Below are positions 2,619 to 23,577 of a DNA stretch of 49,230 nucleotides, in pieces. Source of the stretch: Geobacter sp. (lineage in GTDB: Bacteria; Desulfobacterota; Desulfuromonadia; Geobacterales; DSM-12255); the NCBI GenBank assembly GCA_009886125.1, contig VFJK01000081.1, positions 1-49,230 of the forward strand, in the 5' to 3' direction. The position numbers were made by a program, and so were the translations under genes. Numbering within the stretch: the first letter of the stretch is position 1; each line of letters starts with the position of its first letter. The notes under the pieces are model-generated. The model had not been told where the DNA came from, searched no databases, and saw nothing but the letters and a program-made list of their open reading frames with translations.

Positions 2619-3182
2619 TTAACCTTTTACGCGGGTTGAATACTCACCATTTCTTGTGTCGATAACAATCAGTTCACCCTCTTCAATGAAGGGAGGGACG
2701 CGCAGAACATATCCGGTTTCAACCGTTGCAGGCTTGGAGTCACTGCCTGAGGTATCTCCTTTGGCCCATGGGTCAGTCTGAGCAACACGAAGGTTGACAA
2801 AGTTCGGAACATCTACTGCAATGGCCTTGTCACTGAAAAGCAGGAGGTCAACCGGAAGATTGTCGATCAGGTAGTTTTTTGCATCACCTACTGCATCCTC
2901 ACCCATCCTGTACTGTTCATAATTCAGATTGTCCATGAATACAAAATGACCTTCCTCTCTGTAGAGGAATTGCATTTTTCTGTCCTCAAGACTTGCGGGC
3001 TCAAATGTCTCACCGGAGCGATACGTACGGTCAAGAATGCTGCCGGTGATCATATTGCGCATTTTTGTCCGGTAAAGAGCCTGCCCTTTGCCGGGTTTTG
3101 CAAAGTCAAAAGCGATGACAATGTACGGATCACCATCAAGAGTGATCTTGAGTCCTTTTTTAAGGTCGGCTACTGTATACAT
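2619..3182 (-). CDS. efp: Translation elongation factor P
   Basis: This 187-residue protein has the three-beta-barrel EF-P layout. EF-P relieves ribosome stalling at polyproline stretches. The loop 'AKPGKGQALYRTKMRN' places the modifiable lysine at residue 32, equivalent to E. coli Lys34. The C-terminal signature 'GEYSTRVKG' is also present. The start ATG follows a GGGGGAAA...GAGGTAACAGG leader. Together with epmA next door, beta-lysylation of Lys32 is the expected modification. The gene lies downstream of infA, separated by a hairpin-containing gap of about 80 bp. Confidence 0.97.
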   Translation of the reverse strand: MYTVADLKKGLKITLDGDPYIVIAFDFAKPGKGQALYRTKMRNMITGSILDRTYRSGETFEPASLEDRKMQFLYREEGHFVFMDNLNYEQYRMGEDAVGDAKNYLIDNLPVDLLLFSDKAIAVDVPNFVNLRVAQTDPWAKGDTSGSDSKPATVETGYVLRVPPFIEEGELIVIDTRNGEYSTRVKG

Positions 3183-6405: not shown

Positions 6406-6684
6406 ATGAATAAATCTGAGCTCATCGAACTGCTATCGCTTAAAAAAGGGATATCTTTCAAAAAATCGGAAGAGATTGTAATTACTATTTTCGAGTCCAT
6501 GACTGCTGCCATGCTTTCTGGTGACAGGATCGAGATAAGAGGATTCGGTAGTTTTGTGGTCAATGAGTATAAATCATACACGGGCCGGAATCCAAAGACC
6601 GGTGAGTCTATCGACGTAAAACCGAAGAGACTTCCTTTTTTCAAAGTCGGTAAAGAGCTTAAGGAACGGGTTGCAGGCAAATAA
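6406..6684 (+). CDS. ihfB: HU/IHF-family DNA-bending protein (IHF beta type)
   Basis: At 92 residues this is the usual size. It has the family signature 'GFGSFVVNEYKSYTGRNPKTG' across the DNA-binding beta-arm, including the Arg-Asn-Pro that intercalates into the minor groove. The N-terminal 'MNKSELIELLSLKKGISFKK' looks more like IHF-beta than HU. IHF bends DNA at specific sites and affects replication, recombination and sigma-54 promoters. It is preceded by GGAGGG. The alpha/beta assignment comes from overall similarity only. Confidence 0.9.
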   Translation: MNKSELIELLSLKKGISFKKSEEIVITIFESMTAAMLSGDRIEIRGFGSFVVNEYKSYTGRNPKTGESIDVKPKRLPFFKVGKELKERVAGK

Positions 6685-6700: not shown

Positions 6701-8275
6701 ATGAAATTACGTTCAGCGTTGCTTATTATACTGATACTGCTTCTGCATAAGCAGGTATTTGCTAATCCAAGCCAGTTCGGTTCAAGCGGTCTAATTAACA
6801 TCCCGACTGCAGACACTCTGGATTCTGCAAACTTTTGTGTCGGGCTTTGGGGCAACTGCAGCAGTAAAGCAGATTCCAGCATCAACACAATTATGCCTGC
6901 AACACTGACACTTGGTATCAGTACGTTCTGGGAGGTCTACGGGACCTATCCGAACGTCTATCTAAACAATGAAGCGTCTGATTCAGGCAGAGGGACCGCT
7001 GATATCGGTACAAAGCTGAGAATGTTTGGCGGCAGAAGTGACAAGTTCAAACTTGCTGCTGATTTTCATCTCAGCAGATATATAGATGATAATCCAGCCT
7101 ATAACGGTGCTACTGATTTTGGGGGAAGACTTATAGCCTCTCTTCGCTCAGATATTATTGGTACTCATATTTACTCCGGTTATATGTCAAATGGTGATTC
7201 CAGAGATGTAATCAATAAGATCAAATCCGTAACTGAATATCCGATCGGTGCGGGGATTGAATTTTCTCCATCTACAAGAGCAAAGGCCACTTTTGAAATC
7301 ATGGCCGAAGATGCTGCTAATTCAGCAGCTCCGATGGAGGCTTCTCTCGGTTTTCAGTATTTCATAACTCCACACCTTACGTTTAATCTTTCATATGCAA
7401 TGGGTATTAACGAAGCCGCACCGGTATGGCGTGTTTTATTCGGCCTTTCAACCTGTCAAGGTGTCGGAGCATATATCAAACCCATACCAGAGGTTAAAAG
7501 AAAGGGTGAAAAGGGTCCTAAAACTGACGTCATTAAACCGACCAAAGTCCTTCCGCTATCACCTTTACTTATTAAAGCACCAGTGTTTACGACACCTGTA
7601 GCTAAATTTGAAGTCCCGGTAGATTCCGAAGGTGATGAGATCCTTATACGACCTTACGGTAATGTAGTTATTGCTCAGCAGCCTTCAGCCACTCCGGTAA
7701 TCCTTCCCAGGCTGGCAAATGCAGAACAAAAGGCTGCTGAGGTTTCAGAACCTGTTTTCACTGATCCTGTTCCTGCACCAGCAGATCCTTCTGAATACTC
7801 TTTAACGCGGGTAAGTGGCGTTACGCCTCTCTACGGGGTAAAGTTAAAGGGACAGTCTGAAAAACTGACCGTCGTTTCGCCCGCCGAAAAACTTTCCGGC
7901 CCTGTTTCAGTATACCGAAAGTTCCGTCTGCCTGACCAGCTTTTCGAATTTGATAATGCAGAGATGATACCTGAAGTGCAGAAGTCGGTATCTGAACTTG
8001 CTGAATTCATAAGAAAAGATAACAAGTGGGTTTTTATACGGATTGATGGCCATACTGATGGAGTTGGTTCGGTCAAGTACAACATGGATCTTTCGCTGAG
8101 GCGAGCAATCTCAGTTGCAAACTATCTTGTTTTAAGAGAGGGTATCGACCCGTCGCGTGTTTTTGTCAGAGGTATGGGAAAATCTGCGCCGATAGCCGAC
8201 AACAGCACGGACGAAGGAAGAAAGATAAACCGGCGATTCGAGATCGTCTTCCTGGTGAACAAAGAGAAACAGTAA
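6701..8275 (+). CDS. Outer-membrane protein: YbjH-like beta-barrel fused to an OmpA peptidoglycan-binding domain
   Basis: This 524-residue envelope protein begins at the ATG at 6701, which gives a clean signal peptide ('LRSALLIILILLLHKQVFA'); the TTG 30 bp upstream would bury it. Residues about 22-250 resemble YbjH-type barrels of exopolysaccharide systems ('SGLINIPTADT...' and long runs of alternating residues). A Pro/Val/Ala-rich linker follows. From about residue 407 there is an OmpA/MotB domain with 'FEFDNAEMIPE', 'IDGHTDGVGS', 'LSLRRAISVANYL' and 'NRRFEIVF', including the Asp and Arg that bind peptidoglycan. The TAA overlaps the next ATG (TAATG). Confidence 0.85.
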   Translation: MKLRSALLIILILLLHKQVFANPSQFGSSGLINIPTADTLDSANFCVGLWGNCSSKADSSINTIMPATLTLGISTFWEVYGTYPNVYLNNEASDSGRGTADIGTKLRMFGGRSDKFKLAADFHLSRYIDDNPAYNGATDFGGRLIASLRSDIIGTHIYSGYMSNGDSRDVINKIKSVTEYPIGAGIEFSPSTRAKATFEIMAEDAANSAAPMEASLGFQYFITPHLTFNLSYAMGINEAAPVWRVLFGLSTCQGVGAYIKPIPEVKRKGEKGPKTDVIKPTKVLPLSPLLIKAPVFTTPVAKFEVPVDSEGDEILIRPYGNVVIAQQPSATPVILPRLANAEQKAAEVSEPVFTDPVPAPADPSEYSLTRVSGVTPLYGVKLKGQSEKLTVVSPAEKLSGPVSVYRKFRLPDQLFEFDNAEMIPEVQKSVSELAEFIRKDNKWVFIRIDGHTDGVGSVKYNMDLSLRRAISVANYLVLREGIDPSRVFVRGMGKSAPIADNSTDEGRKINRRFEIVFLVNKEKQ

Positions 8276-8943
8276 TGAAAATAAGACCAATATTTTTTTC
8301 TTTAGTCGTTGCTGCCCTTTTTTCAACAACTGCTTCAGCTGCAGCTGCCACTGATACCTTTATCGGAAAAGTGCAGATCCACAATACAGCCAGACTGGAT
8401 AGTCAGGCAAAGAAGGAAATTGCTGCAATTGCAGCAAAGATCAAGAAGATCATTAAGAGCGGGACGGTCAAGCTGGTTGGAGATATGCCATCTGCTGGAA
8501 CCCCTGACGATTATCTGACGAAATCTTTTTTTCTTGCCAAGAGTGTGGAATATCACCTCAAAACACTTCTGTCGAATCGTTACCAGATATTTCTTACTGC
8601 ATCAAATTACAGGGAAATCAAGAGTGGCGAAAAAAATTACGTCTCTGTCTATCTCTACCCTTTTGAACTGAAAGCCGAAGGGTTGAACTTTATCTCGTCC
8701 CAACTTAAATCGGAAAGCCCTGCAGAAGACCCTACTGCCATTTCGACTCTGCCAACCAGTAAAGCTCCTGACGACTCGTTGCTTTCGACTCCTTTGAGAG
8801 TTGACACTGACACCACCGGTATTAAATCAAAGAAAGAGCGTGTAATAATTGAAACAGAAGACCCGCTTAAAGCGAATGAACTTGTCAACAAGGCAAAAGC
8901 CCGTGCCGCTGAGAAAGCGAAGCGAAGAGAAAGTCAGGAATAA
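8275..8943 (+). CDS. Periplasmic protein with a degenerate OmpA-like fold, unknown function
   Basis: This 222-residue protein has a signal peptide (about residues 1-25). Residues about 36-130 follow the rhythm of the OmpA domain encoded just upstream: helix 'LDSQAKKEIAAIAAKIKKI', strand 'VKLVGDMPSAG' where OmpA has 'IRIDGHTDGVG', then 'KSFFLAKSVEYHL' where OmpA has 'LSLRRAISVANYL'. The Asp and Arg that contact peptidoglycan are missing. The C-terminal third is low complexity and ends in a Lys/Arg-rich stretch. Its start overlaps the previous stop. I infer it is a partner of the upstream outer-membrane protein. Confidence 0.7.
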   Translation: MKIRPIFFSLVVAALFSTTASAAAATDTFIGKVQIHNTARLDSQAKKEIAAIAAKIKKIIKSGTVKLVGDMPSAGTPDDYLTKSFFLAKSVEYHLKTLLSNRYQIFLTASNYREIKSGEKNYVSVYLYPFELKAEGLNFISSQLKSESPAEDPTAISTLPTSKAPDDSLLSTPLRVDTDTTGIKSKKERVIIETEDPLKANELVNKAKARAAEKAKRRESQE

Positions 8944-8991
8944 TATGATATACTCAAACAAAAACATGATACTGGCTACAGGAGAAATATC

Positions 8992-9630
8992 ATGAAGAAA
9001 TTGAGCTTTTGCATACTTCTTGCCCTGACTGTTCTTGCAGGATGCTCGATCAAGATTGTTCCTGATAATGTTTCTAACGGAATCGTCAATGTGAAAGATA
9101 ACAGCATAACTCTTTCCAGAGACACTACTGTAGTGACAGTTGCCCCGGTCGATTCGGATATGATCAACTATAACCTTGAAAGTATGGTCGCTTCGTTCAG
9201 TGTAGAAATACAGAATAATGGCGACAAAGAGATTTCTTTCGAAAACGAAAGTTTTGTCCTGATTGATTCCGATAAGAGGCAGTACTATTCACTAACTCCT
9301 GACAAGATCCGTCAGATGCTGGCGAAAGACTCGTATTACCTGCTCCCCTATCCGTATGTCGGGTTCTACTACCTTGAGGATTATGAACTTGCTGCCTATA
9401 AAAACTCCACGAATTCAAATCTCCCTTATTACTTCGAGATCAGGCCACAGGACATCTATACAAAGGCTCTCCCGGCAGAAGTCATTATTCCGAATTCAAA
9501 GATCAGAGGGCTTGTGTATTTCAATGTTGATATAGCAACTCTGTCCTCTTTCAGAATCAATATGTATTCGAAGGGTGCTTCCAAGTCATCTGAACCTGCC
9601 TTTGTCTTCCCTTATAAAGTTGTCAAATAG
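8992..9630 (+). CDS. Lipoprotein, unknown function
   Basis: This 212-residue protein has a textbook lipobox: hydrophobic 'FCILLALTVLAGC' with the modified Cys at residue 18. Ser and Ile follow the Cys, so sorting to the outer membrane is plausible. The rest is a predicted beta-rich domain without cofactor motifs. A region near residue 70 ('VEIQNNGDKEISFENESFV') looks like an immunoglobulin-type beta sandwich. AGGAGA precedes the ATG. It sits 48 bp after the degenerate OmpA-like gene, in the same envelope group. Confidence 0.75.
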   Translation: MKKLSFCILLALTVLAGCSIKIVPDNVSNGIVNVKDNSITLSRDTTVVTVAPVDSDMINYNLESMVASFSVEIQNNGDKEISFENESFVLIDSDKRQYYSLTPDKIRQMLAKDSYYLLPYPYVGFYYLEDYELAAYKNSTNSNLPYYFEIRPQDIYTKALPAEVIIPNSKIRGLVYFNVDIATLSSFRINMYSKGASKSSEPAFVFPYKVVK

Positions 9631-9633
9631 TAG

Positions 9634-11307
9634 ATGAGTGACCTATCGATTCTCCCGATTCAGGCTCTTGCTGAAATCCTGGGAGGGGGCAGCTTATTTG
9701 TTTACGGCATCAAGCTCATGTCAGAGGGGCTTCAGAAACTTGCCGGAAACCGCTTCAGAGCCCTCCTTGAAAAGGTTTTATCCAGCAGGATTTCTGCAGC
9801 TTTACTGGGAACCTGCCTCGCCTCACTTCTTCAATCGTCAAGTTCGGCTTCAATTCTGGTTGTCGGGTTTCTGAACGCCGGCCTCATCTCCCTTTATCAG
9901 GCATTAGCTGTTTTTCTCGGGACTGCGCTGGGAGCAACCGTTGCTGTCCAGTTTATTGCTTTTCAGCCCGCTGGATTAGCTCTTTTTGTTGTTTTCTTCG
10001 GAGTTTTGTTAAAGTATCTCTTTAAAAGGCGCTATCTGGTAAATACCGGAGAGCTTCTTCTCGGGGCCGGTCTTTTATTCCTCGGCTTGAGGATTCTTGA
10101 GTCAGGACTTTCTCCAATAAGTCACTCTGCCATACTCCAAAGCATCAATGACTATGTGTTCGCCTGGCATATAAGCTCCGTTCTTTTTGGAGCTCTTGTT
10201 ACGCTTCTTGTCCAGTCCCCTTCAGCTGCTACCGGAATTGTAATTGCTTTATGCGGCAGCGGACTGATCACGTTCAATGAATCAGTCGGAATGGTCCTAG
10301 GGTGTAACCTCGGGACTGCGTTTATTGCGCAAATTGCTGCTATCAGCGGGACAGTCATCTCCAGGAGAGCGGCATTTGTAAATCTCATAATCAACTTCAC
10401 GGCAGTCCTCCTCGGCATCCTCCTTTACCCGCTCTTAGTCAAGGCAGTCATCTACTTTTCACCGATGCAACAGCAGTTTACAGCAGATATTATTACTTCA
10501 GCTGAATTTGCTCCTCCAAGAGCTTATCTGCCGAGGATGATAGCCAATGCCCACACTATTTTCAGTCTGTTCATGGTCTGCCTGTTCCTCCCGATGATCG
10601 GGTTCCTTGCAAGAGCTGTCAAACTTTCAGAGAAAACCGGGACTTTTTCAGCACATACCGAGTTTCTCGATGCCAGAGTCCTCAACACTCCGACAATAGC
10701 AACACTTCAGGCGAAAAATGAGATAGTACGGATGTCAGCGATAGCCTCTGCGATGTATGATGACCTTGAGCATCTTCTTTACAGGTCCGACGCAAGGGGG
10801 GTACGAAGAATATATGAAGCTGAAGATACTCTTGACACTCTGCACGGACAGATCTCAAACTTTCTGGTCCTCCTTTCACGCAAGGAAGTAGATCCTGAAA
10901 ACAACTTGAGGATTCCTTTGCTTCTTCAACTTTCTCAGGAAATTGAGCAATTTGGAGACTTGAACTTGAAATTCCTTTCCTACCTGCAGAAGAAAAAAAG
11001 TGAAAAAATGCATTTCTCATTACATGCAATGACTGATCTTAAAAGGCTCGCCGCTGCAGTCGGGGATATTGCAGGGATGCTGAAATCCTTGATGGAGGAC
11101 CAGCCGGACCTGCTTCAAAGGATCAATGATTTAAAGAGTAAAGTTGAGGAGATCCGTGAAATTGCTCTCCAAGGCCATGTAAAAAGGATGAAAACCGGCC
11201 ACTGCACTGTTGAATCAGGTTTTCTGTACAATGACATGGTTACCACGATGGTCAGCCTGTCAGAATGTTCATCGAATATCGTCAGGGTGGGGAGTTCAAT
11301 CAAATGA
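9634..11307 (+). CDS. Na+/phosphate cotransporter family protein with PhoU-like domain
   Basis: This 557-residue protein has an N-terminal membrane part (about 1-315) with the two internal repeats of the PF02690 family; the QSSSSAS and QSPSAATG motifs mark the duplicated pore hairpins. A C-terminal alpha-helical PhoU-like domain spans about 350-550. The family takes up or exports phosphate coupled to sodium. The start ATG comes right after the lipoprotein stop. The stop overlaps the ppx start as ATGA, which links phosphate transport to polyphosphate or pppGpp hydrolysis. Confidence 0.9.
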   Translation: MSDLSILPIQALAEILGGGSLFVYGIKLMSEGLQKLAGNRFRALLEKVLSSRISAALLGTCLASLLQSSSSASILVVGFLNAGLISLYQALAVFLGTALGATVAVQFIAFQPAGLALFVVFFGVLLKYLFKRRYLVNTGELLLGAGLLFLGLRILESGLSPISHSAILQSINDYVFAWHISSVLFGALVTLLVQSPSAATGIVIALCGSGLITFNESVGMVLGCNLGTAFIAQIAAISGTVISRRAAFVNLIINFTAVLLGILLYPLLVKAVIYFSPMQQQFTADIITSAEFAPPRAYLPRMIANAHTIFSLFMVCLFLPMIGFLARAVKLSEKTGTFSAHTEFLDARVLNTPTIATLQAKNEIVRMSAIASAMYDDLEHLLYRSDARGVRRIYEAEDTLDTLHGQISNFLVLLSRKEVDPENNLRIPLLLQLSQEIEQFGDLNLKFLSYLQKKKSEKMHFSLHAMTDLKRLAAAVGDIAGMLKSLMEDQPDLLQRINDLKSKVEEIREIALQGHVKRMKTGHCTVESGFLYNDMVTTMVSLSECSSNIVRVGSSIK

Positions 11308-12251
11308 GTTCTGAAAGAGTTGCATCTATCGACCTCGGCACTAACACAGCCAGACTTCTCATTGGTAGTGCCGAAAACGGTAAGGTTGAGCGTCATTTCA
11401 TTTCCAGAAGAATTACCCGTCTTGGCGGTGGCTTTACAAAGGATTATGGCATAACTCCGGAAGCTTCGTTCAGGACGATTGAAGCAATGAAGGATTTCGC
11501 AAAATCAATTGCAGAGTACAAAATTGAAATGATCCGGGCGGTGGCAACGAGTGCAGTGCGTGATGCAGTCAACCGTTCAGAATTCTGTGAAGAGGTGAAG
11601 AGTTCATCCGGAATTGAACTGGAAATCATCTCCGGTGAACGCGAAGGAAAGCTGACGCTCTCCGGCGTTATCAGCGGACTGGATACCCAACCCGGCTCTC
11701 TGTTTGTTTTCGATGTGGGTGGCGGGAGTACCGAGTATACACTTTCATCTGGTGAGAATATCCTTTTCACCAGAAGTCTACCTTTGGGAGTCGTCAGGCT
11801 GACAGAGGGGAAAGTCAGCGTTGATGCTATGACAGATAAAGTCGAAAAAGAACTCGGCTTACTCGCAAAAGATCTGCAATCCTCTTCACTACTCTCCGGA
11901 TTGTCTTCATCCACACTTATCGGCACAGCCGGGACAGCAACAACACTGGCTGCAATCAGTTTACAACTCTCTGACTATGACTATCAAAAGGTCAACAACC
12001 ATATCCTTTCATTGGACGAGATCAAAGCGATATATCGAGAGCTTCTACCACTCACTCCGGAAGAAAGGCTACGGCTGATTACCGGTCTGGAGGAGGGGAG
12101 AGAGGATCTCATTATCGCCGGGACACTACTGACGATACAAACGATGGAACTTTTCAATTTCAACAGACTCAAGATAAGTGATTACGGTCTGCTGGAAGGG
12201 GTGCTCATAGATCTGGTTGAAACTACCTCAAAGCCTGTAGATACCCATTAA
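11304..12251 (+). CDS. ppx: Ppx/GppA-family phosphatase
   Basis: This 315-residue protein is the short, two-lobed form of the exopolyphosphatase/guanosine pentaphosphatase family, with an actin-like fold. Motif 1 is 'ASIDLGTNTARLLIG', followed by 'AVATSAVRDAVNRSEF', the catalytic region 'ISGEREGKLTLSGV' and the nucleotide loop 'FVFDVGGGSTEY'. The ATG at 11304 has GTGGGGAG upstream; an in-frame ATG 39 bp earlier would extend into the previous gene. It is translationally coupled to the Na/Pi transporter. Polyphosphate versus pppGpp preference cannot be decided from sequence. Confidence 0.9.
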   Translation: MSSERVASIDLGTNTARLLIGSAENGKVERHFISRRITRLGGGFTKDYGITPEASFRTIEAMKDFAKSIAEYKIEMIRAVATSAVRDAVNRSEFCEEVKSSSGIELEIISGEREGKLTLSGVISGLDTQPGSLFVFDVGGGSTEYTLSSGENILFTRSLPLGVVRLTEGKVSVDAMTDKVEKELGLLAKDLQSSSLLSGLSSSTLIGTAGTATTLAAISLQLSDYDYQKVNNHILSLDEIKAIYRELLPLTPEERLRLITGLEEGREDLIIAGTLLTIQTMELFNFNRLKISDYGLLEGVLIDLVETTSKPVDTH

Positions 12252-14718: not shown

Positions 14719-16026
14719 GTGCCTAACTATTTCAATGAAGAATTTGAGACTCTTCCCAGAACGGCTCTTGATGCTCTCCAACTCAAAAGACTTAAAGCAG
14801 TAATTGAAAGAGTATATAGCAATGTCCCGTTTTACCGTGCTTCATTTGATTCGTTTAGTATTACACCAGACTCGATTAAATCGCTTGAGGATCTTCAAAA
14901 ACTCCCGTTCACGACAAAGCAGGATATGCGTGACTCATACCCTTATGCACTCTTTGCCGCACCAATGGATGAGATCGTCAGGATTCATGCTTCAAGCGGC
15001 ACTACCGGAAAACCGACTGTTGTCGGCTACACAAAGCAGGACATCGAGAACTGGGCCGACCTTATGGCTCGAACTCTGGTAACAGCTGGAGCACATAAAG
15101 GTGATATTATCCATAACGCCTACGGATACGGCCTTTTTACCGGAGGCCTTGGCGTTCACAACGGTGCCGAGAGACTCGGTGCCTCGGTAATTCCCATCTC
15201 AGGCGGGAACACGGCACGCCAGCTCATGATCATGCAGGATTTCGGATCGACCGTGCTAACCTGCACACCGTCATACTCCCTCTTCATGGCCGAGGAGGCC
15301 AGAGCCGAAGGAGTGGACTTCAGAAAGCTCAAGCTCCGGGTCGGAATTTTCGGTGCAGAACCGTGGTCTGAGTCAATGCGTCAAGAGATCGAGGAGAAGT
15401 TGAACCTGACTGCTCTTGATATTTACGGTCTTTCAGAGATCATGGGACCGGGAGTCGCGCAGGAGTGCTTTGAAGGGAAATGCGGGCTGCATATCTGGGA
15501 GGATCACTTTCTTCCAGAGATCATAAACCCACTGACCGGTGAATCTCTCCCGGAAGGTGACAAGGGTGAGCTTGTCATAACGACTCTTACAAAGCAGGGG
15601 ATACCTCTCATACGGTACAGGACACGAGATATTACCAGTATCACCTATGAGCCGTGCGTATGCGGCAGAACCCATGCAAGGATATCACGACTCAGCGGTC
15701 GATCAGACGATATGCTGATCATCCGCGGAGTAAATGTATTCCCGTCGCAGATAGAGTCTATCCTGGTCAGAATCGAAGGTGTTGAGCCTCACTATCTCCT
15801 TATCGTCGACCGAAAGGACAATCTTGATACTCTGGAGATTCAGGTCGAGGTCGATGAACGTATCTTCTCTGATGAGATAAAGGTTCTTCAGGGGCTTGCC
15901 AGGAGGATCGAAAAGGAGATCAAGGATATGCTGGGGGTCACCTGCAGCGCCAAGCTTGTCGAACCAAAAACAATTCAGAGAAGTGAAGGCAAGGCCGTAC
16001 GAGTCATCGACAAACGGAAGTTGTAG
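14719..16026 (+). CDS. paaK: Phenylacetate--CoA ligase (PaaK), first copy
   Basis: This is a 435-residue AMP-forming aryl-CoA ligase. It carries the P-loop '[16 protein letters not shown]' (about residues 92-107), '[13 protein letters not shown]' near 235, and the C-terminal '[19 protein letters not shown]' lid region. The start is GTG with AGGAGGAG upstream. Aryl-CoA ligases beside iorAB could feed aryl acids such as phenylacetate or indoleacetate into reductive synthesis of aromatic amino acids, or act in the other direction. A second copy is encoded at 22276-23577. The stop codon lies inside a REP-like repeat. Confidence 0.9.
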
Positions 16027-16093: not shown

Positions 16094-16525
16094 ATGAAAG
16101 TTGAACAGATCTCCATATTTATCGAAAACAAGTCCGGACGGCTGGCTGAGGTAACCACTATCCTCGGTTTTGCCGGTGTCAACATCAGGGCGCTTTCTCT
16201 TGCGGATACTTCCGATTTCGGTATACTCCGTCTCATTGTAAACGATTGTGACAAGGCGATCACCGCATTGAAGGATAAGGGATTCACTGTCAGCAAGACC
16301 GAGGTGGTGGCAGTCGAGGTCCCTGACAAACCGGGCGGACTGGCCAGTATCCTTCACGTTCTTGATAAAGATTCAATAAATGTCGAATATATGTATGCTT
16401 TTGTCGAACGATGCGGAGCAAACGCTGTCATTATTTTTCGTTTTGATGAAACAGAAAAAGCAATAGCATCACTTCTCGGCAGAGGATTCAATATTCTTGA
16501 AGGTGAGCATCTTTACGGGATGTAA
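16094..16525 (+). CDS. Tandem ACT-domain protein
   Basis: This 143-residue protein consists of two ACT domains. The first begins '[20 protein letters not shown]' and the second begins at about residue 73 with '[20 protein letters not shown]'. ACT domains bind amino acids and regulate enzymes or transport. Its place between paaK and the liv genes suggests it senses an aromatic or branched-chain amino acid. The ATG at 16094 has GGAGGG upstream; a longer in-frame reading runs back through the REP-like repeat and is rejected. Confidence 0.88.
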
Positions 16526-16544
16526 GAAAAAGGAGGAGATATTT

Positions 16545-17681
16545 ATGTTGAGTCTTAGATCACTGCTTGTTTTTGCAACAGTTTTACTAGTTTCTTCATC
16601 GGCAATTGCTGCTGAACCACTCAGGATCGGTGCACTTTTTTCGGTCACCGGACCAGCTTCATTTTTAGGAGAACCTGAGCGCAACACTCTGGAAATGCTG
16701 GTAAAAGAGGCAAATGCCAAAGGTGGGATCAAAGGTCATAAAATCGAGCTTGTGATTTATGATACCCAGGGTGATGCAACCAAGGCAGTCCAGCTTGCAA
16801 CCAAGCTGATCAAGAATGACAAGGTTTCAGTGATTATCGGCCCGAGCACAACCGGTGAAACAATGGCAATAATTCCGGTTGTTGAAAAGGAAAAAATACC
16901 GCTGATATCATGTGCAGCAGGAATCAAGATAATCGATCCGGTAAAAAGATATGTATTCAAGACTCCGGCTAACGACCATGTTGCTGCCGAAAAGATCTTC
17001 AATTACATGGCGGCAAAGAAGCAGAAAACCGTTGCACTTCTTACCGTTACTGACGGTTTCGGCTCTTCCGGTCGTGAACAGTTGAAAGACATGGCAAAGA
17101 AGAAAGGGATAGCTGTTGTTGCTGATGAAACTTACGGCCCTAAAGACACTGATATGACAGCGCAGCTAACTAAAATCAAAGGAAGCAAGGCAGAAGCGAT
17201 CATATGCTGGGGAACAAACCCGGGTCCGGCGATTGTCACCAGAAATGTGAAGCAGCTCGGCATCAAGATTCCTCTTTATCAGAGTCATGGTGTTGCTTCA
17301 AAGAAATACATCGAGCTTGCCGGAGTCGACAACGCTGAAGGCGTTCTGCTCCCTGCAGGGAAACTTGCAATCTATGAGAAGATGAAGTCGTCAGACCCTC
17401 AGTTCAAGCTTCTGAAGGATTACGATCAGAGATACAAGAAAGCTTACAATACTGAAGCATCTACCTTTGGCGGATATGCATATGATTCATTCCTTATGAT
17501 ATCTGAAGCACTTAAAACAGGCGCTTCTCCGGAGCAGCTCCGTGACGGGCTTGAGGGTATTATAAAGCTTGTATCTATATCAGGCATTTACAATATGTCA
17601 GGTTCCGACCATAACGGTCTTGATCTGAATGCATTTGAAATGGTCAGAATCGTCAAAGGCGACTGGGTAATAGCTAAATAG
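16545..17681 (+). CDS. livK: Branched-chain/hydrophobic amino acid ABC transporter, periplasmic binding protein 1
   Basis: This 378-residue Leu/Ile/Val-type binding protein has a signal peptide cleaved near 'AIAAEP'. The mature start 'LRIGALFSVTGPASFLGEPE' and the ligand-loop region 'IIGPSTTGETMAIIPV' are typical. AGGAGGAG lies just upstream of the chosen ATG. It is the first of two tandem paralogues sharing one set of membrane and ATPase subunits. The ior/paaK context makes aromatic or aryl ligands as plausible as branched-chain amino acids. Confidence 0.9.
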   Translation: MLSLRSLLVFATVLLVSSSAIAAEPLRIGALFSVTGPASFLGEPERNTLEMLVKEANAKGGIKGHKIELVIYDTQGDATKAVQLATKLIKNDKVSVIIGPSTTGETMAIIPVVEKEKIPLISCAAGIKIIDPVKRYVFKTPANDHVAAEKIFNYMAAKKQKTVALLTVTDGFGSSGREQLKDMAKKKGIAVVADETYGPKDTDMTAQLTKIKGSKAEAIICWGTNPGPAIVTRNVKQLGIKIPLYQSHGVASKKYIELAGVDNAEGVLLPAGKLAIYEKMKSSDPQFKLLKDYDQRYKKAYNTEASTFGGYAYDSFLMISEALKTGASPEQLRDGLEGIIKLVSISGIYNMSGSDHNGLDLNAFEMVRIVKGDWVIAK

Positions 17682-17692
17682 GGGAGGGGAGA

Positions 17693-18835
17693 ATGAAACG
17701 ATTTCTAGCAGCGGCCTGTTTTACCGTTTTAACAGTTTTATCCGCAACCATCTGCATTGCAGCTCCTGGAACAATAAAGATCGGTGCTCTTTTCTCTGTT
17801 ACCGGTCCACCATCTTTTCTCGGAGAGCCTGAGCGTAATACCGCAAAAATGGAAGTTGATGAGATAAATGCTAAAGGCGGTATAAACGGGAAAAAAATAG
17901 AACTTATCGTATATGATACGACCGGAGATGCCACAAAAGCTGTCCAGGCTGCAAACCGCCTCATCAAGGAGGATAAGGTTGTTGCTATTATCGGCCCGAG
18001 TACAACCGGAGAGTCGATGGCAGTGCTCCCTGTTGCCGAAAAAGAGCAGATCCCGTTGATCTCCTGTGCTGCCGGGAGCAAAATTACCGATCCTGTCAAG
18101 AAATGGGTATTCAAGACCGCTCAGAATGACGGACTTGCTGTTGCGAAGATCTATGAATATCTGAACAAGAAGAAAATCAGCAAGATAGCCATTATCACCG
18201 TATCTGACGGCTTTGGTTCATCCGGAAGGGAACAGCTCAAGGTTAATGCCGCGAAGTTCGGTATTCAGATTGTGGAGGATAGCACCTTCGGACCCAAAGA
18301 TACTGATATGACTGCTCAGCTTACTAAAATTCGGGGGAGTCAGGCGCAGGCAATTATCTGCTGGGGGACCAACCCTGGTCCTGCTATGATTGCCAAGAAT
18401 GTAAAGCAGCTTGGAATCAAGCTCCCTCTTTTCATGAGTCACGGCGTCTCATCCAAGAAGTTCATAGAGCTTGCCGGAGATGCTGCTGACGGGATAATAC
18501 TCCCTTCAGGGCGTGTTATTGTATCTGATGTTCTCCCTTCGAGTGACAAACAGAAAAAGAGTCTGATCGCTTTTGTCAAAGACTACCAGAAGCACTATAA
18601 GACTGAAGGGGATCATTTCGGTGGTCATGCCTGGGATGCTGTGATGCTTCTGAAAAATGCCATTGAGAAAGGCGGGGAAACCCCTTCCCAGATCAGGGAT
18701 CAGTTGGAAAAAACTCAGAATATTGCAGGTATTGGTGGAATTTTCAATTTCTCGCCAACTGACCATGCTGGTTTGAGCAAAGATGCTTTTGTGCTTGTCC
18801 AGATTAAGGACAAGGATTGGGCGCTGGTAAAATAG
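17693..18835 (+). CDS. livK: Branched-chain/hydrophobic amino acid ABC transporter, periplasmic binding protein 2
   Basis: This 380-residue paralogue of the preceding protein shares long identical stretches such as 'IIGPSTTGE' and 'DGFGSSGREQLK'. It has a signal peptide ending near 'CIAAPG'. The two genes are 11 bp apart with GGGGAGGGGA upstream of this ATG, so they arose by tandem duplication. Divergence is spread through the protein, which suggests different ligand ranges on one transporter. A strong hairpin follows the gene. Confidence 0.9.
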   Translation: MKRFLAAACFTVLTVLSATICIAAPGTIKIGALFSVTGPPSFLGEPERNTAKMEVDEINAKGGINGKKIELIVYDTTGDATKAVQAANRLIKEDKVVAIIGPSTTGESMAVLPVAEKEQIPLISCAAGSKITDPVKKWVFKTAQNDGLAVAKIYEYLNKKKISKIAIITVSDGFGSSGREQLKVNAAKFGIQIVEDSTFGPKDTDMTAQLTKIRGSQAQAIICWGTNPGPAMIAKNVKQLGIKLPLFMSHGVSSKKFIELAGDAADGIILPSGRVIVSDVLPSSDKQKKSLIAFVKDYQKHYKTEGDHFGGHAWDAVMLLKNAIEKGGETPSQIRDQLEKTQNIAGIGGIFNFSPTDHAGLSKDAFVLVQIKDKDWALVK

Positions 18836-22275: not shown

Positions 22276-23577
22276 ATGGGAATCTGGGATCCTGCCAACG
22301 AATGTATGTCGCGTGAAGAACTTGAACAGCTCCAGTTGGAGCGGTTACAGGCGACACTTCACCGGGCGTACAAAAATGTATCCTGTTATCGCAACAAGTT
22401 CAATGAGCTGAAGATAGACCCGGATGATGTCCAGTCACTCTCCGATCTATCCAAGCTCCCTTTTACCACGAAAGACGATCTGCGCCTCAACTATCCTTAC
22501 GGGATGTTTGCTGTCCCGTTGCGTGAAGTTGTCCGGATTCATTCATCGTCAGGCACCACCGGGAAACCGACTGTTGTCGGCTATACAAGAAACGACATAA
22601 AAACCTGGTCAAATCTGATGGCACGAGTTCATACCGCAGCCGGGATCACTCACGACGATGTTGTCCAGATCGCATTCGGCTACGGCATGTTTACCGGAGC
22701 ATTCGGACATCACTACGGAGCCGAGATCATTGGTGCCTCCGTCATCCCGATGGGTGGGGGCAACACCGAAAAGCAGATCATGATCATGCAGGATTACCGC
22801 TCAACCGTTCTTGTCAGCACCCCGAGCTATGCAATCACCATCGCTGACAGGATGGAGCAGTTGGGAGTTGATTCCAAGAGCCTTTCATTAAAATTCGGAC
22901 TTTTCGGCGGTGAGCCCTGGTCTGAATCCATGCGGACCGAAATCGAGAGCCGCCTCGGGATCAGTGCGACCGATAATTACGGGTTGTCCGAGGTAATCGG
23001 TCCCGGTGTTGCCGGTGAATGCGAATATAAATGCGGCATGCATATATTCGAAGACGTTTTCATTCCCGAGATAATCGATCCAGAGACCTGTGAACTGCTC
23101 CCTCCAGGAAGCGTGGGCGAGTTGGTTATCACGACGATTACCAAGGAAGCATTCCCGATGATCAGATACAGAACAAGGGATATTACCAGCCTCGATTACA
23201 GTAAATGCGACTGCGGCAGAACCCTTGTCAGGATGAAGAAGACCATGGGCAGAAGTGATGATATGCTGATAATCAAAGGGGTAAATGTTTTCCCGTCACA
23301 GATCGAAGATGTCCTTGTCGCTATCGATGGATGCGAGCCTCATTATCAGCTGGTAATCGACAGAAAAAACAGCGCAGATTTCATCGAGATCCAGATCGAA
23401 GTAACCGAAAATATCTTCTTCGATGAGATGCGGCTTCAAAGGGCGTTTATCGACAAGGTGCAGAAGAAGATAGAATCAGTTGTCGGTGTCAGTGTCGGTA
23501 TCAAACTGGTTGAACCGAAGAGCATACCAAGATTTGAGGGCAAGGCATCAAGAGTGATAGACAAAAGGCACTCATAG
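22276..23577 (+). CDS. paaK: Phenylacetate--CoA ligase (PaaK), second copy
   Basis: This 433-residue paralogue of the ligase encoded at 14719-16026 shares the P-loop '[16 protein letters not shown]', '[12 protein letters not shown]' and '[19 protein letters not shown]'. Both copies have the same Cys-containing loop before the lid domain. The differences around the substrate pocket suggest a different aryl acid preference. It is the last gene of the operon; an intrinsic terminator follows within 25 bp of its stop. Confidence 0.9.

Follow-up and report, generated by a model that had tools for sequence, protein, structure and literature searches.

OmpA-fold domains are the standard means of fastening the outer membrane to the cell wall, and fusions of the OmpA/OprF type combine an outer-membrane barrel with such a peptidoglycan-binding domain. 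The outer membrane is also central to the physiology of the relatives of Geobacter. In OmpA of A. baumannii, Asp271 and Arg286 bind diaminopimelate (PMC5974059), and the nearest published parallel that we found to an OmpA-like domain deprived of its binding motifs is PA1624 of Pseudomonas aeruginosa, a periplasmic protein whose OmpA-like domain lacks the glycan-binding motifs (PMC7716261). Among other envelope barrels, GfcD of the YjbH/GfcD family (PF06082) has two predicted barrels, of which the second opens laterally (PMC11494523), and the lipoprotein RcsF forms a complex with a barrel (PMC4942254); each of these four papers is cited from an excerpt. Here, we describe three adjacent genes on a stretch of 49,230 nucleotides from Geobacter sp. 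(assembly GCA_009886125.1, contig VFJK01000081.1, positions 1 to 49,230, forward strand; referred to as the window), which encode a barrel/OmpA fusion (YO), a protein of 222 amino acids (MID), and a lipoprotein (LIPO), together called the trio. Judged by its sequence, MID is an eroded OmpA domain; it lacks the residues for peptidoglycan binding, is under purifying selection, and belongs to a set of genes that is present or absent as a block. Given that its orthologs at one locus range from motif-poor but recognizable OmpA domains to ones invisible to profile libraries, they form a series on which the role of this fold after the end of wall binding can be tested. We found no paper on this module in searches of an open-access collection, which misses most subscription journals.

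The initial annotation had proposed three open reading frames (ORFs) on the plus strand, and these were recovered at 6701-8275 (YO, 524 amino acids), 8275-8943 (MID, 222 amino acids), and 8992-9630 (LIPO, 212 amino acids). YO begins with a signal peptide of approximately residues 1 to 21 (assigned by eye), followed by a barrel-like part (residues ∼22 to 265; 6764-7495), a presumably periplasmic linker (7496-7912), and a canonical OmpA domain. The latter matches PF00691 over residues 414 to 511 (7940-8233) with an E value of 3.1e-24 and 85.6 bits against a cutoff of 27.2, and it carries the motifs GHTDGVG and SLRRAIS with the binding residues Asp453 and Arg468. In the alignment, the binding Asp is kept in 61 of 62 YO proteins (the remaining one has a gap) and the binding Arg in all 62. 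The linker is conserved in short blocks around PLSPLL and PVAKFEVPVD..EI.I.PYG. A structure model of YO, with a mean pLDDT of only 40.7, tentatively shows a pattern of ∼12 strands in the barrel part. Besides PF00691, no Pfam family matched YO, and the NCBIfam matches shown concern the OmpA domain only. YO thus resembles OmpA/OprF-type proteins in its architecture but differs from them in matching no Pfam family other than PF00691, in its ∼12 tentative strands, in its long conserved linker, and in being coencoded with MID and LIPO. For the barrel, the best hit of a profile search against the Protein Data Bank (PDB) had an E value of 0.25, compared with 0.24 for LIPO and 0.029 (a dehydrogenase) for MID, none of them meaningful, and PHROGs returned zero matches for three proteins. 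With the barrel profile, 35 of 297 genomes in the phylum gave a match; the matches beyond the class are weak, concern generic outer-membrane barrels (2 of 3 scanned belong to PF13557), and do not assign a function. Among the YO orthologs, one carries three tandem OmpA domains (L142:2422-5199, plus strand; residues 391-507, 613-730, and 808-923), and one genome holds, besides the trio, a second, stand-alone YO copy without MID and LIPO (L069:5207-6829, minus strand). In a genome without the trio, the OmpA domain of another protein is ∼40% identical to that of YO and lies just downstream of a Ppx gene (L193, ∼9213-9527, plus strand).

MID consists of a signal peptide, recognized by eye from a basic start, a hydrophobic stretch, and an A-x-A motif, of a core of ∼100 residues, and of a C-terminal extension (8704-8940) made of a linker and a Lys/Arg/Ala-rich helix (residues 197 to 221); only 6 of 38 MIDs in the order (Geobacterales) exceed 200 amino acids. 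The initial annotation had read this protein as a degenerate OmpA domain, and the profile comparisons agree. The MID of the window has no Pfam match at E values up to 5 and nothing usable in NCBIfam, and 6 of 37 MIDs of the order match PF00691 at E values up to 1 (best, 0.002). However, outside the order all 18 MIDs found in the corresponding place of the operon match PF00691 (E values up to 0.01; best, 2.7e-14), and the two of these that were scanned singly lie above the family cutoff. Since the profile of the MIDs of the order (alignment A1) joins that of the MIDs outside it (A8) with an hhalign probability of 99.3% and an E value of 3.6e-20, and since the members of A8 match PF00691 without exception, MID is linked to this family through intermediates. 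The direct comparison of the 38-MID profile with the OmpA domains of YO by local hhalign was in register, with a score of 27.1 (E value, 7.9e-4; probability, 24.8%) whereas 40 column shuffles scored no higher than 17.3, and an earlier hidden Markov model (HMM) from 35 MIDs matched 3 of the 40 YO proteins of the fetched loci over their OmpA domain, again in register (E values, 0.003 to 0.022). When the MID profile was run over 141 genomes of the order, the sole match outside the cassette at E values up to 0.001 was a 209-amino-acid frame in genome G067 (E value, 2.6e-4), which we take to be Pal from its sequence and its presumed TolR-TolA-TolB neighbors.

Structure prediction, proposed as a check in the initial annotation, did not produce the refuting outcome named there, a fold unrelated to OmpA. 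The AlphaFold2 model of MID, built from 3 sequences, has a mean pLDDT of 62.4, with ten-residue blocks between 67 and 84 from residue 31 to 130, and it predicts a core of residues 28 to 130 (8356-8664) with strands at 28-34, 65-70, 103-109, and 122-129 and helices at 43-58 and 77-98. The resulting order of β-α-β-α-β-β is compatible with an OmpA domain. VIA-align listed, for the model, OmpA chains (7rjj, Z of 5.9; 3td5, 5.4) and MotB chains (5y40, 5.8; 3s02, 5.6), and a sequence search of the PDB with MID reached an OmpA-type chain, 3oon, only at an E value of 1; overall, the fold search was nondiscriminating.

To follow the residues that bind the wall, we aligned 56 MIDs (38 from the order, including that of the window, and 18 from outside) with 62 OmpA domains of YO. 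As the initial annotation had stated, the MID of the window has lost the Asp and the Arg, reading GDMPSAG for GHTDGVG and SFFLAKS for SLRRAIS. The Asp of the HTD motif is present in 0 of 56 MIDs. The Arg of LSxxRA, in contrast, is missing from all 38 MIDs of the order and kept in 18 of 18 outside it; the second Arg of NRR shows the same split (0/38 and 18/18) and occurs in 62 of 62 YO domains. All 56 MIDs retain the Ala that follows the Arg position. Within the order, the former Asp position holds S, A, P, G, N, F, or R and the former Arg position L, I, V, or M, and several MIDs outside the order read F-S-S-P-E-G at the Asp site. By parsimony, the simplest reading of these alignments is that the Asp would have been lost first, class-wide, and the arginines later, in the lineage of this order. 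MID shares with the OmpA/Pal/MotB domain its ancestry, a compatible order of elements, and, by its signal peptide, a predicted periplasmic location; unlike the intact domain in YO, it is without the Asp and, in the order, also without the Arg for diaminopimelate binding. PA1624, which we liken to MID by its description in the excerpted text (PMC7716261), differs in being a two-domain protein that lost its motifs together with whole secondary-structure elements.

MID is under purifying selection, with dN/dS values of 0.10 to 0.25 in 7 of 7 close pairs and 0.05 to 0.11 for YO (Nei-Gojobori, own script; dS exceeded 0.9 in three pairs and was undefined for LIPO in two). Among individual MIDs, one locus outside the order carries a 76-amino-acid remnant (L148:5005-5235, plus strand) in which the signal peptide and the first and last strand motifs are present and the OmpA core between them is gone, and two others encode MIDs with long C-terminal tails (L131:4022-4999, plus strand; L132:7627-8574, minus strand), the tail of the former containing repeats of the type RGYSQSKQATDSDLK.

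LIPO has the features of a lipoprotein, a lipobox (LAGC) and a Cys after the signal peptide (Cys18) that is invariant in 38 of 38 sequences, and it weakly matches LPAM_1 in Pfam; it would probably sit at the outer membrane. The only further similarity is to DUF4352 (PF11611), at 18.8 bits, under the cutoff of 25.9, with 23 of 38 members matching at E values up to 1. NCBIfam gave nothing usable, and no RcsF-type family is among the Pfam and NCBIfam matches of LIPO.

The three genes are conserved together, in agreement with the neighborhood conservation that the initial annotation had named as a check; a lack of conservation in relatives was not what we found. In the 141 genomes of the order, the barrel region of YO occurs in 42, LIPO in 41, all of them YO genomes, and MID in 39 (40 matches minus the Pal of G067). 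The 42nd YO genome, G100, holds a YO fragment in a 71-amino-acid frame and was left out of the alignments, as was G049, whose locus (L103) shows the same operon with YO, LIPO, and the transporter gene described below split over several frames, probably by draft-assembly errors. Alignments A1 to A3 further exclude locus L044, and A2 and A3 exclude L050 as well. Synteny was read with our own ORF caller and BLAST to the window proteins. Among 40 fetched loci of the order (39 genomes), 39 have LIPO downstream of YO, all but that of the stand-alone YO copy, and 37 have an open MID frame. In the window, the start of MID overlaps the stop of YO by 1 nucleotide (TAATG), and among 35 YO-MID junctions 19 show an overlap of 4 nucleotides, 10 lie between an overlap of 1 and a gap of 3 nucleotides, and in 6 the longest frame starts further upstream. 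The same gene order holds in 22 loci of the class outside the order (20 picked across families from 93 matching genomes, plus 2 others), with YO in 21, MID in 18, and LIPO in 22; at one of these, L134, the contig ends at LIPO and thus before any YO, MID, or cyclic-nucleotide-binding gene (introduced below) could be seen. This makes the trio a co-inherited envelope module of a class that includes Geobacter relatives (e.g., loci L007 and L008).

The cassette is bordered in the window by a gene for an HU/IHF-type DNA-binding protein on the left (6406-6684, plus strand; PF00216, E value 9e-29) and by one for a Na/Pi symporter with a PhoU domain, called NaPi, on the right (9634-11307, plus strand; PF02690, E value 3.3e-49; PF01895, 1.1e-9). 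NaPi is found in 92 of the 141 genomes, 57 of which have no trio, and from these 57 we picked 12 trio-less loci. In 11 of them NaPi follows HU at 7 to 361 nucleotides (approximate tblastn distances) with no ORF of at least 70 amino acids called in between, and the twelfth showed no HU in the vicinity of NaPi. The trio thus occupies a single site between lasting genes, at which it is present or absent as a block. Given that the trio-bearing arrangement is common across the class, repeated loss of the cassette is, by parsimony, the simpler reading.

The initial annotation missed this block-wise presence and absence, as well as a fourth gene outside the order. In 21 of the 22 loci outside the order, a small protein with a cyclic-nucleotide-binding domain is encoded between the YO/MID pair and LIPO. 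It was identified at L115 (PF00027, E value 9.3e-25) and assigned at the other loci by BLAST to the L115 protein. Within the order the gene is kept in 1 of 40 loci (L046), and in the window MID and LIPO have no ORF between them. Examples are L115:6539-7012 (minus strand), L116:5267-5740 (plus strand), and L046, ∼6912-7343 (plus strand). In nine loci of other classes, LIPO is encoded without YO in the fetched stretch, and the cyclic-nucleotide-binding protein adjoins it in 4 of these. In two loci, L118:5031-6770 (plus strand) and L119:5452-7270 (minus strand), the distant LIPO lies between the cyclic-nucleotide-binding protein and an EF-P-like gene; the window, too, has a gene of the latter kind close to the cassette (2619-3182, minus strand).

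An uncharacterized envelope complex, as the initial annotation suggested, is the natural reading of genes that are conserved together. More specifically, we propose, as a proposition on which the balance is even, that the trio forms one outer-membrane module, with YO held to peptidoglycan, MID joined by protein contact, and LIPO as companion. YO would be a membrane barrel of possibly ∼12 strands whose OmpA domain, with its binding residues intact, holds on to peptidoglycan, and LIPO would be its constant companion. MID would be a periplasmic subunit derived from a peptidoglycan-binding OmpA domain, whose binding residues may have been lost in two steps: the Asp, along with the HTD motif, ahead of the diversification of the class, and the Arg together with the second Arg of the Arg-Arg pair on the way to the order. 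What would have retained MID are protein contacts. Its translational coupling to YO suggests that it might dock on the OmpA domain of YO or on the conserved linker, or else on LIPO, and it could thereby link the YO tether to LIPO as an accessory clamp or adaptor, with YO alone gripping peptidoglycan. MID is likely accessory rather than essential, because it is missing at some loci where YO and LIPO stay. As the function of the module, envelope tethering and stability are assumed by default. We regard it as a somewhat less secure, still tentative extension of this proposal that the trio is a class-wide outer-membrane machine, kept or lost as a block, in which an OmpA domain was turned stepwise into a pure protein-protein subunit, with intermediates surviving that kept the Arg and lost the Asp.

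Several results weigh against this proposal. The direct match of MID to the OmpA domain of YO is weak, with a local probability below 25% and, in a global alignment, an E value of 0.11 and a probability of 0.3%. The structural searches do not favor OmpA, since Foldseek with the MID model gave no match at E values up to 0.001 and listed Alba-type and other chains first, and VIA-align ranks C-terminal domains of IF3 (Z up to 8.0) above the OmpA and MotB chains. The YO model is too poor for use. Of the three proteins, MID has the lowest conservation (mean column identity of 23% versus 45% and 53%), and it is absent where YO and LIPO are kept in G019 and G026 of the order and in L146 and L147 outside it, with L148 holding only the remnant. 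Finally, that MID touches YO or LIPO is deduced only from the coupling of their genes. Apart from these points, the operon structure is read only from spacing and synteny, as the promoter and terminator scan was at background (11 versus 10.9 and 8 versus 6.2).

Among the other explanations, the position of NaPi suggests a phosphate-linked module, in which the Na/Pi transporter and the Ppx phosphatase would use YO and LIPO as their pore or acceptor in the outer membrane. NaPi follows LIPO in 31 of 38 LIPO-bearing loci of the order with a continuing contig and in 19 of 22 outside it, and in another class a distant LIPO has a DUF47 protein and a PiT phosphate transporter as immediate neighbors (L117:3583-6259, minus strand). 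However, most NaPi genomes do without the trio, with HU next to NaPi in nearly all of the loci sampled, and NaPi does not adjoin the trio in 7 of 38 loci, these seven genomes not being among the NaPi matches at all. The trio is thus separable from the phosphate genes, the link may be one of mere position, and we consider such a module unlikely. The sequence of MID itself would also fit a changed receptor for another ligand, such as a different stem peptide, another polymer, or a small molecule, in place of an adaptor: the secondary-structure elements are retained, selection is purifying, the helix Ala is universal, and the MIDs outside the order have kept both arginines though not the Asp. Since the former ligand positions vary within the order and no new invariant polar residue has appeared at these two, we judge this reading to be rather unlikely. 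The complete loss of function, with MID as a decaying gene, might be suggested by its low column identity, its repeated absence, and the remnant at L148, but the open frame in 37 of 40 loci of the order and the low dN/dS in every pair leave it hardly any credit, and we rejected MID as a pseudogene on the latter ground.

LIPO and its former neighbor raise the possibility of envelope sensing, with LIPO threading through or docking on the barrel in the manner of RcsF and OmpA, reporting the state of the envelope, and with the cyclic-nucleotide-binding protein as a former cytoplasmic partner. A complex of a lipoprotein and a barrel is known for RcsF, in the excerpted text of PMC4942254, and offers a functional analogy, and the cyclic-nucleotide-binding gene occupies its place between MID and LIPO in almost all of the sampled loci outside the order and beside nearly half of the distant LIPOs. 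No membrane signaling component, however, is among the identified neighbors, and the cyclic-nucleotide-binding protein is evidently not needed, because it is missing from 39 of 40 loci of the order and from the interval between MID and LIPO in the window; we therefore see envelope sensing as improbable. The initial annotation had instead labeled the barrel "YbjH" and suggested exopolysaccharide export. YO does share a TGL..P.A-like motif near its start with the YjbH/GfcD family, and its barrel resembles the first barrel of YjbH (hhalign score 32.0, E value 0.0044, probability 7.8%; maximum of 24.0 in 40 shuffles) in a comparison with a profile of 13 YjbH-type proteins or fragments from the order. 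Since this weak match exceeds the shuffles, a distant kinship with that first barrel is possible; PF06082 also matches 3 of 39 aligned YO proteins at E values up to 1 (best, 0.021) and the YO ortholog with three OmpA domains at 0.001, below the cutoff. The YO of the window, however, has no PF06082 match at E values up to 5, which leaves the label without support. In place of two barrels, the second laterally open, it has a single barrel-length stretch, a linker, and the OmpA domain, and no polysaccharide locus is among the identified neighbors of the trio. The genome's own YjbH (711 amino acids; PF06082, E value 4.8e-27) sits elsewhere, on contig C93, downstream of five glycosyltransferase-family genes. 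The export that the initial annotation suggested is thus very improbable, and we rejected it for the missing PF06082 match, the single barrel-length stretch, and the location of the real YjbH.

Around the trio, the identified neighbors are a methyltransferase-like gene called rumA, a tetratricopeptide repeat (TPR) gene, HU/IHF, the Na/Pi symporter, Ppx, and IorA. Pfam backs only the names of the TPR, HU, and Na/Pi genes; the others were named by eye, and the neighbors marked "orf" carry no identification. The Ppx/GppA-type gene (11265-12251, plus strand), known from its ORF and synteny, lies directly downstream of NaPi. Further into the window are a tandem pair of branched-chain amino-acid binding proteins (16497-17681 and 17693-18835; named by eye) and two phenylacetate-CoA-ligase-like genes (14719-16026 and 22276-23577; also named by eye) around an ABC transporter.

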